A model generated the notes under the pieces. It saw only the letters and a program-made list of their open reading frames with translations, did no database searches and was not told where the DNA came from. Both the position numbers and the translations under genes were made by a program. From an uncultured bacterium (lineage in GTDB: Bacteria > Cyanobacteriota > Vampirovibrionia > Gastranaerophilales > Gastranaerophilaceae), in the NCBI GenBank assembly GCA_949296355.1, contig CASFPS010000017.1:1-40541 (forward strand): a DNA stretch of 40,541 bases. The letters run 5' to 3'. Below, piece by piece: positions 20,480-22,673 of this stretch. Position 1 is the stretch's first letter. Each line of letters begins with the position of its first letter.

Positions 20480-21121
20480 ATGGAAAAATATAAAAAATAC
20501 TATGGTATAATTTTATTTTGTGCATTAGTTCTGACTGTTGTATATGTAGGATATCAGATGACAATGCCTAATTACAACACTTATTTATCAGAAAAAGCAA
20601 AAGTAGAAAAAGCGCAGAAAAAAATTGATGACTTAAATAATAAACTGCAGATAGTACAGAACAAAATTAAAAAGATTAAAGATTCAATTGTATCTTCCCA
20701 GAAGAAAATATATTCTCCTGTAGAATCTGATTTAGGTGATGAAACATTGTTCTTTACATTATATAATGATGTAATAGAAATGCTTCATGCAAACTCTATC
20801 AAGATTCAGGCTATAGATTACCAGTATAATCCAAATACGGATAACTTTGTTAAATTTGGTAAGGATATATACTTTGTCTGCGATATCAACATGGAATTGA
20901 TTTCTAACTATGTAAATCTTGGAAAACTGATTCAGGACATCTATCAATATCCTTATTATATTAGAATTAATGATTTAGAAGTTAAACCTTATGCTAAAGA
21001 TAAGAAAATCTTATTATCAAGTTTAAGCCTCAGATTATACGCTCATACAGAGCCGGCAGAAGCAGCAACAACACCTGCAGTTCCGGCACTGGACGGAGCT
21101 AATACTGCATTGCCGCAATAA
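20480..21121 (+). CDS. PilO-like inner membrane protein
   Basis: A 213-residue protein with a short cytoplasmic N-terminus, one transmembrane helix (about 8-28, GIILFCALVLTVVYVGYQMT), a coiled coil (about 38-75, rich in Lys/Asn) and a periplasmic alpha/beta domain, the layout of PilO. The C-terminus is Ala/Pro/Thr-rich (AEAATTPAVPALD), probably disordered. PilO normally pairs with PilN, which here appears as the C-terminal half of the preceding gene. AAGGAT precedes the ATG. Confidence 0.65.
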   Translation: MEKYKKYYGIILFCALVLTVVYVGYQMTMPNYNTYLSEKAKVEKAQKKIDDLNNKLQIVQNKIKKIKDSIVSSQKKIYSPVESDLGDETLFFTLYNDVIEMLHANSIKIQAIDYQYNPNTDNFVKFGKDIYFVCDINMELISNYVNLGKLIQDIYQYPYYIRINDLEVKPYAKDKKILLSSLSLRLYAHTEPAEAATTPAVPALDGANTALPQ

Positions 21122-21143
21122 TGTTACAAGAATAAGCAAATAC

Positions 21144-21172
21144 TTGATAATAAATTTTGTTTAGTATAGAAT
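21144..21172 (+). promoter_or_regulatory. Candidate promoter of the tRNA-Gly region
   Basis: TTGATA (21144-21149), 17 bp, TAGAAT (21167-21172). If active, the primary transcript would run through the hairpin at 21186-21204, an R1 left half (21222-21256) and both partial tRNA copies, giving a leader of about 385 bases before tRNA-Gly. No better promoter is visible closer to the gene. Confidence 0.4.
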
Positions 21173-21221
21173 TTTTGTATCAACTCTGACAGTTGTGTTG
21201 TCAGCAAGTTAAGCCGGCACC

Positions 21222-21256
21222 CATCCTAACCTTCCCTCATAAGGGAAGGAAAGCGC
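21222..21256. repeat. R1 element, left-half copy
   Basis: CATCCTAACCTTCCC, a CTTCCCTcATAAGGGAAG hairpin and GGAAAGCGC match the left half of the R1 copies at 33 and 678. Just upstream, CTGACA/TGTCAG (21186-21204) is an unrelated small hairpin. Confidence 0.6.
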
Positions 21257-21298
21257 CAGATTTGACGTTAAGCCGATGAATGACAATTGAATATGAGT

Positions 21299-21562
21299 GC
21301 GGAAGTAGCTCAGTTGCCCAAGCGAGGCTAATTTGAGCAACTGCACAAAGAAAGCGAAGTTGAGCCGAGCGTATCTGAGATATACTCTACCAACTGAGCG
21401 GTTGAAAGTTTAATAAGTTTGAATATGAGTGCGGAAGTAGCTCAGTTGCCCAAGCGAGGCTAATTTGAGCAGCTGCATAGGAAAAGCGAAGTTGAGCCGA
21501 GCGTATCTGAGATATACTCTACCAACTGAGCGGTTGAAAGTTTAATAAGTTTGAATATGAGT
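21299..21562 (+). repeat. Two 132-bp units, each a partial tRNA-Gly with an inverted D-arm
   Basis: Units 21299-21430 and 21431-21562 are nearly identical. Each starts with the first 18 bases of tRNA-Gly (GCGGAAGTAGCTCAGTTG), continues with about 65 bases of unrelated insert, then carries an 18-base inverted copy of the tRNA D-arm (21382-21399; 21514-21531), complementary to 21572-21589 of the real tRNA. It ends with the linker GAAAGTTTAATAAG and the leader TTGAATATGAGT. Within a unit CAGTTGC can pair with GCAACTG (in unit two GCAGCTG, still paired through G-U), or alternatively the inverted arm can pair with GCTCAGTTG. These partial copies cannot make functional tRNAs. Confidence 0.9.
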
Positions 21563-21635
21563 GCGGAAGTAGCTCAGTTGGTAGAGTATCTGCCTTCCAA
21601 GCAGACTGTCGCGAGTTCGAGTCTCGTCTTCCGCT
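21563..21635 (+). tRNA. tRNA-Gly (anticodon TCC)
   Basis: A 73-base cloverleaf: acceptor GCGGAAG/CTTCCGC, D-stem GCTC/GAGT, anticodon stem TCTGC/GCAGA around loop CTTCCAA (anticodon TCC, reads GGA/GGG), a five-base variable region and T-stem GCGAG/CTCGT with loop TTCGAGT. The discriminator is T and CCA is not encoded. It is immediately preceded by two partial copies of its own 5' end. Confidence 0.96.
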
Positions 21636-21639
21636 AATA

Positions 21640-21669
21640 AAAAAGAGTCCTTAAAGGACTCTTTTTTAT
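21640..21669 (+). terminator. Rho-independent terminator after tRNA-Gly
   Basis: AAAAGAGTCC, loop TTAAA, GGACTCTTTT followed by TT. A strong ten-pair stem with U-tract, only a few bases after the tRNA 3' end. The A-rich 5' side could also let it act in the opposite direction. Confidence 0.9.
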
Positions 21670-21696
21670 TGTTTTATTAATACAATAAGTAAAGTA

Positions 21697-21722
21697 GTAG
21701 TGTGGAGCTTGCCCCACACTAC
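21697..21722. repeat. GTAGTGTGGAGC palindrome, left copy (R6)
   Basis: GTAGTGTGG faces CCACACTAC around AGCTTGCC. It is a near-copy of the perfect palindrome at 22021-22046. The two flank the candidate toxin-antitoxin module. Confidence 0.75.
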
Positions 21723-21742
21723 TTAGCTTTTAGTGTTATTGC

Positions 21743-21771
21743 TTGAAAAAAATAACCATATGCGCTATAAT
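21743..21771 (+). promoter_or_regulatory. Consensus promoter for the candidate antisense RNA
   Basis: TTGAAA (21743-21748), exactly 17 bp, and a perfect TATAAT (21766-21771). No protein-coding frame follows on this strand, which points to a small RNA starting near 21778. Confidence 0.75.
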
Positions 21772-21777
21772 TAAAAA

Positions 21778-21877
21778 GTAAAGGAAAAGCCCTAGCTGGG
21801 ACTAGAGCTTAACCACTTCCTTTACAGGGCAATTTGTAAAGTAGCTATCATCACTAGAATGGTGATAGCTATTTTTA
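21778..21877 (+). ncRNA. Candidate antitoxin antisense RNA (about 100 bases)
   Basis: Predicted from a consensus promoter at its 5' end and an intrinsic terminator at its 3' end (AGCTATCATCA facing TGGTGATAGCT, then ATTTTTA, 21843-21877). The 5' part folds: GTAAAGGAA pairs perfectly with TTCCTTTAC (about 21778-21825), enclosing a smaller AAGC...GCTT hairpin. It overlaps the minus-strand 23-residue peptide gene for almost the whole coding length, so it is perfectly complementary to that mRNA. This is the geometry of type I antitoxin RNAs. No experimental support; the RNA class is inferred. Confidence 0.65.
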
Positions 21878-21893
21878 TCAGCCATTTTGCCAT
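21822..21893 (-). CDS. Candidate type I toxin: 23-residue hydrophobic peptide
   Basis: A 72-base gene. The peptide starts MAKWLIK and continues with 16 almost wholly aliphatic residues, ending in LQIAL: one membrane helix with two N-terminal lysines and a tryptophan, as in known type I toxins. A textbook AAAGGAGG sits six or so bases before the ATG, far stronger than at many genes here. A minus-strand promoter (TTGATT at 22013-22008, 16 bp, TAAAAT at 21991-21986, with an extended TGG) would give a leader of about 87 bases. That leader folds (TCTCGG facing CCGAGA) right up to the ribosome-binding site. The antisense RNA above overlaps it. No homologue is recognised; the call rests on architecture. 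Confidence 0.65.
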   Translation of the reverse strand: MAKWLIKIAITILVMIATLQIAL

Positions 21894-21985
21894 GCAGACC
21901 TCCTTTCTCGGCAAATAACCACAAAATTTGTTGTTCCGAGAGAAAGTCTTAGAAAGTGCTTCCTTGCATATAAATATGCATATCT

Positions 21986-22013
21986 ATTTTACCATACAAA
22001 AAGCAATAATCAA
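21986..22013 (-). promoter_or_regulatory. Candidate promoter of the toxin mRNA
   Basis: On the minus strand TTGATT, a 16-bp spacer ending in TATGG (extended -10 TG) and TAAAAT. The transcript would start near 21980 and carry a structured leader (CTTTCTCTCGG ... CCGAGAAAGG) that partly involves the purines upstream of the Shine-Dalgarno. Confidence 0.5.
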
Positions 22014-22020
22014 TTAATCG

Positions 22021-22046
22021 GTAGTGTGGAGCAAGCTCCACACTAC
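22021..22046. repeat. GTAGTGTGGAGC palindrome, right copy (R6)
   Basis: A perfect 12-bp inverted repeat, GTAGTGTGGAGC, AA, GCTCCACACTAC. It lies ten bases before the stop end of the uracil-DNA glycosylase gene and could stop minus-strand reading upstream of the toxin promoter. Confidence 0.8.
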
Positions 22047-22055
22047 TCGGTTTTC

Positions 22056-22673
22056 TTATACAGCCAGCTTATCGTATTCGCGTTTAATTTCCTGAATATC
22101 CTGCCACATAAGCCATTTAGGACTGCCTTTCTCTCTTGAATCATTTCTTAGAAGATAAGAAGGGTGAAAAATCGGCATCATTTTCGCGCCATAAACATCG
22201 ACAATTGCACTCTCGGGTGGAAACCAGCTCCCTCTGATACGTGTAATTCCGCCTGCATTACCTAAAATAGATTGAACTGCAACATTTCCGCAGAGCAGAA
22301 TAATTTTTGGTTTTATAATTTCTATTTGAGCTTTCAAATATTCCCAGCATGCTTCTTTTTCGTCTGTAAGCGGATTCCTGTTATCTGGCGGACGGCATTT
22401 GAGGGTATTACAGATATAAACATCTCTTTCCCTTGTAAACCCGACCGAAGCAAAAATTTTATCCAGAAGCTGTCCGGCTTTTCCGACAAAAGGTTTTCCC
22501 TGCATATCTTCATAATATCCGGGCGCTTCTCCTATCAGCATTAGTTTCGGGTTCGGAATTCCGTCATCAAAAACAATGTTGTGTCTGGTTTGAAAAAGCG
22601 GACATTTCCGGCAGGAAAGGCATTTTTCCCTGATTTCATTTAATTTTTTACGAAGTTCTTCTGTTGTTTCCAT
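22056..22673 (-). CDS. Family 4 uracil-DNA glycosylase (4Fe-4S)
   Basis: A 205-residue enzyme that removes uracil from DNA. The N-terminal CLSCRKC supplies cluster cysteines; further cysteines lie in NTLKCRPP and EACWEYL. Motif A is GEAPGYYEDMQGKPFVGKAG (about 47-66), with the Glu/Gly-rich pattern of family 4, and motif B HPSYLLR near residue 168. This matches family 4 (UDGa) rather than family 5. The ATG has only an A-rich upstream region, with no clear Shine-Dalgarno. Its upstream neighbour, the acyl-CoA synthetase, ends 54 bp away with an R7 hairpin (GTCGGCTTaataAAGCCGAC, 22691-22710) between. Confidence 0.9.
   Translation of the reverse strand: METTEELRKKLNEIREKCLSCRKCPLFQTRHNIVFDDGIPNPKLMLIGEAPGYYEDMQGKPFVGKAGQLLDKIFASVGFTRERDVYICNTLKCRPPDNRNPLTDEKEACWEYLKAQIEIIKPKIILLCGNVAVQSILGNAGGITRIRGSWFPPESAIVDVYGAKMMPIFHPSYLLRNDSREKGSPKWLMWQDIQEIKREYDKLAV

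Follow-up and report, generated by a model that had tools for sequence, protein, structure and literature searches.

In bacteria, the control of tRNA genes is generally taken to act chiefly at initiation and through gene dosage. The described systems that come closest to the arrangement considered here include the rtT repeats of the E. coli tyrT operon, which are tandem non-coding units beside a tRNA gene and contain a partial copy of the tRNA, and the T-boxes, which control mRNAs and read the anticodon and 3' end of a tRNA supplied in trans. We know of no precedent for tRNA control of the kind proposed below.

The window, by which we mean the whole 40,541-nt stretch of DNA analysed here (contig C17 of G000, the 2.09-Mb genome of a Candidatus Gastranaerophilales bacterium from a group of gut bacteria), contains a complete tRNA-Gly(TCC) gene that is preceded by two tandem units. 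When Rfam was run over the locus only the tRNA reached the gathering score, and the matches below threshold are those expected by chance. No covariance match to the T-box was found at E values up to 5 in positions 20900-22100, and the downstream gene is a tRNA rather than an amino-acid gene. Neither was there a match to a group I intron model; the insert is some 60-110 nt long and a complete tRNA lies downstream, so the gene is not interrupted. The literature searched, which had most subscription journals outside its coverage, contained no report of such leaders.

We hypothesise that the units belong to a widespread and undescribed class of tRNA leader, in which a partial tRNA copy and an antisense arm would decide, during transcription, if the tRNA they are linked to is to fold and be set free by RNase P, a general claim to which we give slightly less than an even chance of being right.

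The tRNA-Gly locus

ARAGORN places the tRNA-Gly(TCC) at 21563-21635 of the forward strand, which is also the strand of every feature given below. Before it, the repeat search finds two units of 132 nt that are 96% identical, unit 1 at 21299-21430 and unit 2 at 21431-21562, which the covariance model R1 matches with E values of 4.6e-20 and 7.5e-20, respectively. Each unit starts with a copy of nt 1-18 of the tRNA (21299-21316 and 21431-21448) and later carries an 18-nt inverted copy, antisense to tRNA positions 10-27 (21382-21399 and 21514-21531), which the inverted-repeat search shows to be 100% complementary to the D-arm target at 21572-21589. The sequence-only reading of this DNA had described two such 132-bp units, each with a 5' tRNA copy and a perfect D-arm antisense, and this is borne out by ARAGORN and the repeat search, the latter also giving a 30-nt direct repeat that is present in three copies at the locus. 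From 5' to 3', a unit is composed of the copied nt 1-18, CCCAAGCGAGGC, a variable part, GCCGAGCGTATCTGAGAT, the antisense ATACTCTACCAACTGAGC, the motif TTGAAAGTTTAATA and a short AT-rich stretch. The TTGAAAGTTTAATA leader motif, which is common to units of different classes, lies at 21402-21415 in unit 1 and was read from the sequence at 21534-21547 in unit 2.

A scan identified a putative sigma-70-like promoter before the units (TTGATA-17-TAGAAT, 21144-21172), which is the sole good candidate for the whole leader and tRNA, and an intrinsic terminator 3' of the tRNA (21635-21671). A second promoter within the units was rejected, by eye and by scan, there being no -10-like box at the right distance. 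In relatives without units (loci L033 and L035) a similar promoter directly adjoins the tRNA. Downstream of the tRNA there is a palindromic repeat, GTAGTGTGGAGC...GCTCCACACTAC, in two near-identical copies about 300 bp apart (21696-21723 and 22022-22050).

The insert of the unit contains a covarying helix, P2, with tandem G.A, the conserved strands of which, GCGAGGC and GCCGAGC, were located by covariation analysis at 21322-21328 and 21364-21370 in unit 1, with the corresponding strands at 21454-21460 and 21496-21502 in unit 2. Four of the five pairs of P2 change on both sides, with 20 double-change cells compared with 6.6 in shuffles (none of 500 shuffles reaches 20), and in the pair that varies most all 31 cases are either C-G (17) or T-A (14). 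A conserved structured RNA thus lies between the predicted promoter and the gene, as would be expected of a bistable cis-regulatory leader. P2 falls outside the CAGTTGC/GCAACTG hairpin of the insert, which had earlier been put forward together with a G-U change between the units; both of these features are present in the window, but the hairpin cannot be generalised, as its region is 37% identical between species.

A search for 16S genes recovered none from the genome of the window and one from the relative G322 (L312), the 16S leader of which contains CTTTGAAAACAGAATACT, similar to the motif before unit-bearing tRNAs. We take CTTTGAAAACAGAATACT to resemble the boxA of Gram-positive bacteria. 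In this comparison with a single 16S leader (n = 1), the resemblance is suggestive of TTGAAAGTTTAATA being a boxA-like motif, and that between the TTGAAAATTAAATA stretch accompanying the units and a stretch before the 16S rRNA hints that the long structured leader may be subject to antitermination.

Distribution of the units

In the window's genome, 10 of the 39 tRNA genes are preceded, at a distance of no more than 400 nt, by a copy of their own 5' end, as against 9 of 1482 mismatched tRNA/leader pairs, and at least 12 nt of antisense to the gene's own D-arm is found for 5 of the 39, as against 5 of 1482; the arrangement is therefore not due to chance. The ten tRNAs with an upstream copy are Gly-TCC, Ala-TGC, Phe, Pro-TGG, Pro-CGG, Asp, a tRNA with a CAT anticodon, Leu-TAG, Leu-CAA and Leu-GAG. 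Beyond this genome, the covariance model of the unit has matches in 61 of 334 genomes of the family and in 18 of its 41 genera, with arrays of at least four units in some genomes, and in the loci read the units stand before tRNA-Gly, Val, Lys, Trp, Arg and Ala, the first five of these in loci from genomes matched by the model. A unit homologous to that of the window's tRNA-Gly is present in about 30 of the 65 genomes of the genus, the orthologous site being empty in L035. Those relatives with a window-type unit that carry names are Candidatus Gastranaerophilales or Melainabacteria MAGs, and the 30 tRNA loci of one genome from a different family of the same class contained no units. The unit is thus no local scar, but recurs across the family.

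In further genera, units were seen before tRNA-Trp, Arg-ACG and others (L294-L295, L299, L308 and L310), and some Gly and Lys arrays consist of two to four units. Contigs often end inside or beside unit arrays (G046:C48, G053:C61, G036:C57, G027:C169 and G039:C127), so that the assemblies probably undercount them. Comparable units are also found in a genome outside the group, G065 (L104), where they precede Asn, Thr-GGT, Arg-TCG and Thr-CGT (L122, L132, L138 and L140), the Thr-CGT unit having a copy of about 46 nt and an antisense to the anticodon arm. The sigma factor of G065 is a 658-aa ORF that is just 49% identical over the matched part, and the genome apparently belongs outside Cyanobacteriota.

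Two other classes of insert were observed. A class II unit consists of tRNA nt 1-11, a conserved insert that reads ACTCTGNCGA-stem-GAGAGG (L046 and L069 in the window's own genome; L196 in G100) or also CUCUGNCGA-stem-GAGAGG (L196 and L069, for example), and then a hairpin, before which the Leu and Val units have an extra sense copy of about nt 18-28. These units are about 100-135 bp long and precede the tRNAs Met/CAT, Leu-TAG and Val-GAC, those of Met and Val being tandem; a clear antisense is present in the oldest Met unit alone. A hammerhead identity for the class II inserts (CUCUGNCGA...GAGAGG) was rejected, since the core A14 is missing. The third class has a GC-rich insert, CCCCGCGGCGAGCGGTAAGGC...GAGCGGAGCCGTTA, at L004 (tRNA-Asp), L034 (tRNA-Gly of G007) and L244; it is common to the tRNA-Asp and tRNA-Gly leaders of different species and has no antisense.

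One explanation of this distribution is a small mobile RNA element, intron-like or retro-type, which inserts in the tRNA D-arm, uses the antisense as a target guide and keeps the host gene intact by means of the copied 5' end. The sequence-only reading had raised the scar of an element inserting in D-loops as its alternative, and several of the expected marks are there: the copies and insertion points fall at defined tRNA positions (11, 13-14, 18, 25 and about 46), the antisense spans the junction 18|19, tandem arrays occur at a single site, and presence and absence of the unit are observed at one locus, where such patchiness would be expected. Moreover, the promoter-proximal copy preserves the promoter spacing of the empty sites, the 3' motif TTGAAAATTAAATA travels with the insert, and there are several insert classes, with units even in the unrelated genome G065. 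Such an element would, however, have to move without a protein of its own, none being codable in 60-150 bp, it has no match in viral contigs, and in Phe the antisense does not span the junction. Spread within a genome finds no support either, as Gly and Val units taken from the same genome are as distant from each other as those from different genomes, and Gly units resemble the Gly units of other species more than the Val units of their own genome. A jump from one type of tRNA to another would disrupt the acceptor stem, given that the copy and the antisense are each specific to their tRNA. A mobile element also leaves unexplained the selection on RNA pairing that is described in the next section, and we consider it unlikely.

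Selection on the antisense arm

Among the Gly units identity is 37% in the variable insert, 100% in the copied D-arm and 92% in the antisense. Should the inverted arm not be conserved in relatives, the units were to be regarded as a neutral duplication, according to the sequence-only reading; the arm is clearly conserved across them. In the interior of the main-class antisense (positions 13-25) all 22 of 22 substitutions keep RNA pairing, 21 being A>G opposite U and one C>T opposite G, whereas the copies in the scored units have 31 changes, of which 12 are G>A, eight C>T, four G>T and the rest others, with no A>G at all (these counts take no account of shared ancestry, and the first drew on 11 genomes). 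The 13 changes that are incompatible with pairing are all in Phe, Met and Pro units, where the antisense covers another stretch.

The antisense also follows differences between the tRNAs themselves, changing along with those between isoacceptors and with the loss of a D-loop base in one tRNA and the gain of one in another. It tracks GTTC/GAAC in the Trp tRNA, CAGCTG in the Ala tRNA, AGTTTGG versus AGCTTGG in the Pro tRNAs of two species, C25 in the Gly tRNA of genus g4, the flanks of the Lys and Val tRNAs and the additional D-loop A of the Arg tRNA, and in genome G001, where the D-loop of the Gly tRNA is one base shorter, antisense and copy are shortened too. Taken together, the wobble-only changes in the antisense and the different spectrum of the copy indicate that selection acts on RNA pairing, in so far as this can be judged by comparing sequences, and not that the arm is maintained by copying at the DNA level, as a DNA-level process has no reason to spare G.U and selection on RNA pairing has. 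The copied acceptor strand behaves otherwise, its changes being mostly G>A, which is unlike selection for pairing with the 3' strand. Where copy and tRNA differ it is the downstream tRNA that keeps a regular acceptor stem, so that the downstream tRNA is the functional product, and an antisense that is kept complementary to that tRNA must act on it.

Selected RNA complementarity would fit pairing in trans as well as in cis. A leader cut off by RNase P could act as an antisense fragment that binds the tRNA, tRNA fragments or another RNA, as a sponge or a small RNA targeting tRNA, and pre-tRNA spacer sponges are known in E. coli (the 3'ETS of leuZ). We judge a role of this kind improbable: access to the D-arm is poor once a tRNA has folded, action in trans has no need of the copied acceptor strand, and the arm tracks the flanking bases of its own linked tRNA (positions 25-28).

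Very improbable in our view, and already weakened by the above data, is a neutral by-product of tandem duplication and template switching at quasi-palindromes, in which the DNA of the arms would be corrected to match the tRNA and so stay perfect. Perfect arms, homogenised tandem units, variation in copy number and clean empty sites are to be expected of slippage and quasi-palindrome correction, yet correction of this kind would erase G.T mismatches, and the 22 interior changes and the differing spectrum of the copies do not conform to this. Nor would it be expected that P2 covaries, or that the core motifs of the insert and the unit itself recur in 18 genera.

Predicted folds and proposed mechanism

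Ensemble folding was performed with Vienna, which considers nested structures only, on 101 units, each joined to its own tRNA. The antisense lies on the tRNA D-arm at 0.96 and nt 1-7 of the copy pair with the tRNA 3' strand at 0.86, while the tRNA's own acceptor stem forms at 0.001, a value to be read in the knowledge that Vienna excludes pseudoknots, so that an acceptor stem beside an antisense-bound D-arm is not scorable. When a unit is folded by itself, its antisense finds a partner within the unit at 0.78. The energy gained by interaction between unit and tRNA is -12.3 kcal/mol if the tRNA is the cognate one, as compared with -1.8 for two other sequences of tRNA. A series of folds of the growing transcript from the window has the arm of unit 2 paired in the leader until the tRNA D-arm emerges, upon which it re-pairs. 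When both units are present, the partner of lowest energy is at times the tRNA and at times, in a mixed pairing, a different stretch of the leader, which makes the two-unit leader less clear-cut than single units.

Folding thus predicts two exclusive states, one with the antisense held in the unit and the other with the antisense on the tRNA D-arm and the copy's acceptor strand on the tRNA 3' strand. One arm would then have two exclusive pairings, both conserved and one of them with the controlled gene, as a bistable leader should; the pairing of arm and tRNA is strongly supported, and the partner of the arm within the unit differs between classes. In nested folding the non-productive state is the default, which is odd for essential single-copy tRNAs.

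A spliced tRNA intron, with the copy as exon 1, an intron reaching to the D-loop of the downstream tRNA and the antisense as an internal guide aligning the exon ends, might be read from a predicted fold that builds a tRNA from the copy and the 3' part, and from a main-class antisense whose pairing covers about 9 nt in each of exons 1 and 2, but it is hardly credible, as there is no match to group I or any other intron model in Rfam, the unit is smaller than known self-splicing introns, Phe lacks the exon 1 pairing, and the copy, as the would-be exon, decays (G>A) while the downstream tRNA stays complete and regular.

Because the antisense is kept able to pair with the tRNA as RNA, the units probably control tRNA folding and maturation, and we give an even chance to the proposal that they do so as a cis-acting bistable leader, on the strength of sequence comparison and modelling. 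Before the tRNA is synthesised, the arm would be held in the unit, partly by the copied D-arm. As the tRNA D-arm emerges the arm could move onto it, since pairing with the tRNA (up to 18 bp) exceeds that with the copy (about 9 bp), and the copied acceptor 5' strand would then pair with the tRNA 3' strand. RNase P recognises the acceptor/T-arm stack, so that capture of the D-arm alone might not block the enzyme; the copied acceptor strand would do so, we infer, and this would provide a role for the copy. In the state with the arm on the tRNA, the true acceptor stem and D-arm would be blocked, RNase P would be drawn to the 5' end of the copy and no mature tRNA would result, whereas with the arm in the unit RNase P would release the tRNA normally. 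The ratio between the two states would set the tRNA yield, and the choice between them may depend on the speed at which the 3' half is transcribed, or on a ligand or protein at P2. A kinetic decision of the former type needs no ligand and fits the variable inserts. That the leader could sequester the D-arm of the nascent tRNA had been suggested beforehand, and the suggestion is now supported by conservation, tRNA-specific co-variation, the pattern of wobble substitutions and predicted folding. Units before Asp, Leu-TAG and Leu-CAA, and before Thr-GGT and Arg-TCG in G065, have no clear antisense, and the bistable leader therefore does not cover all classes. The patchy distribution of the units, seen even at the orthologous tRNA-Gly locus, likewise counts against this reading.

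Comparison with known systems

If the bistable leader is correct, the supply of each tRNA would be adjusted individually by the folding of RNA. This would add a new level at which the translation machinery is controlled, separate for the Gly, Val, Lys, Trp, Arg, Ala, Phe and Pro tRNAs, and would offer a natural system for co-transcriptional strand exchange and for the choice of RNase P site. Even if the unit were a selfish element, an RNA that builds a tRNA-specific antisense at its point of insertion would be new.

The nearest comparisons, namely the rtT repeats, the T-box and attenuators, differ from the units in defining features. Like rtT repeats, the units are tandem, non-coding, next to a tRNA gene and hold a partial tRNA copy, but rtT repeats copy the 3' end, lie downstream and have no antisense D-arm, whereas the units copy nt 1-18 and lie upstream, and they fall outside the rtT definition. 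With T-box leaders they would share a cis-acting leader RNA, two exclusive folds and pairing with a tRNA; here, however, the controlled gene is the tRNA itself and the pairing is to its D-arm. Similarly, riboswitch or attenuator leaders with anti-antisense arms have an arm that sequesters and that a different partner is able to capture, although the proposed output here is tRNA folding or processing instead of a terminator or ribosome site. The group I introns of bacterial tRNA genes are likewise inserts in a tRNA with guide pairing on both sides of the junction, but those known are located in the anticodon loop and are longer than about 200 nt, and here a complete tRNA is kept downstream. Finally, the 3'ETS-leuZ spacer sponges are a non-tRNA part of a pre-tRNA with antisense capacity, as the units are, but while these sponges target small RNAs, the complement of the unit is the tRNA to which it is linked.
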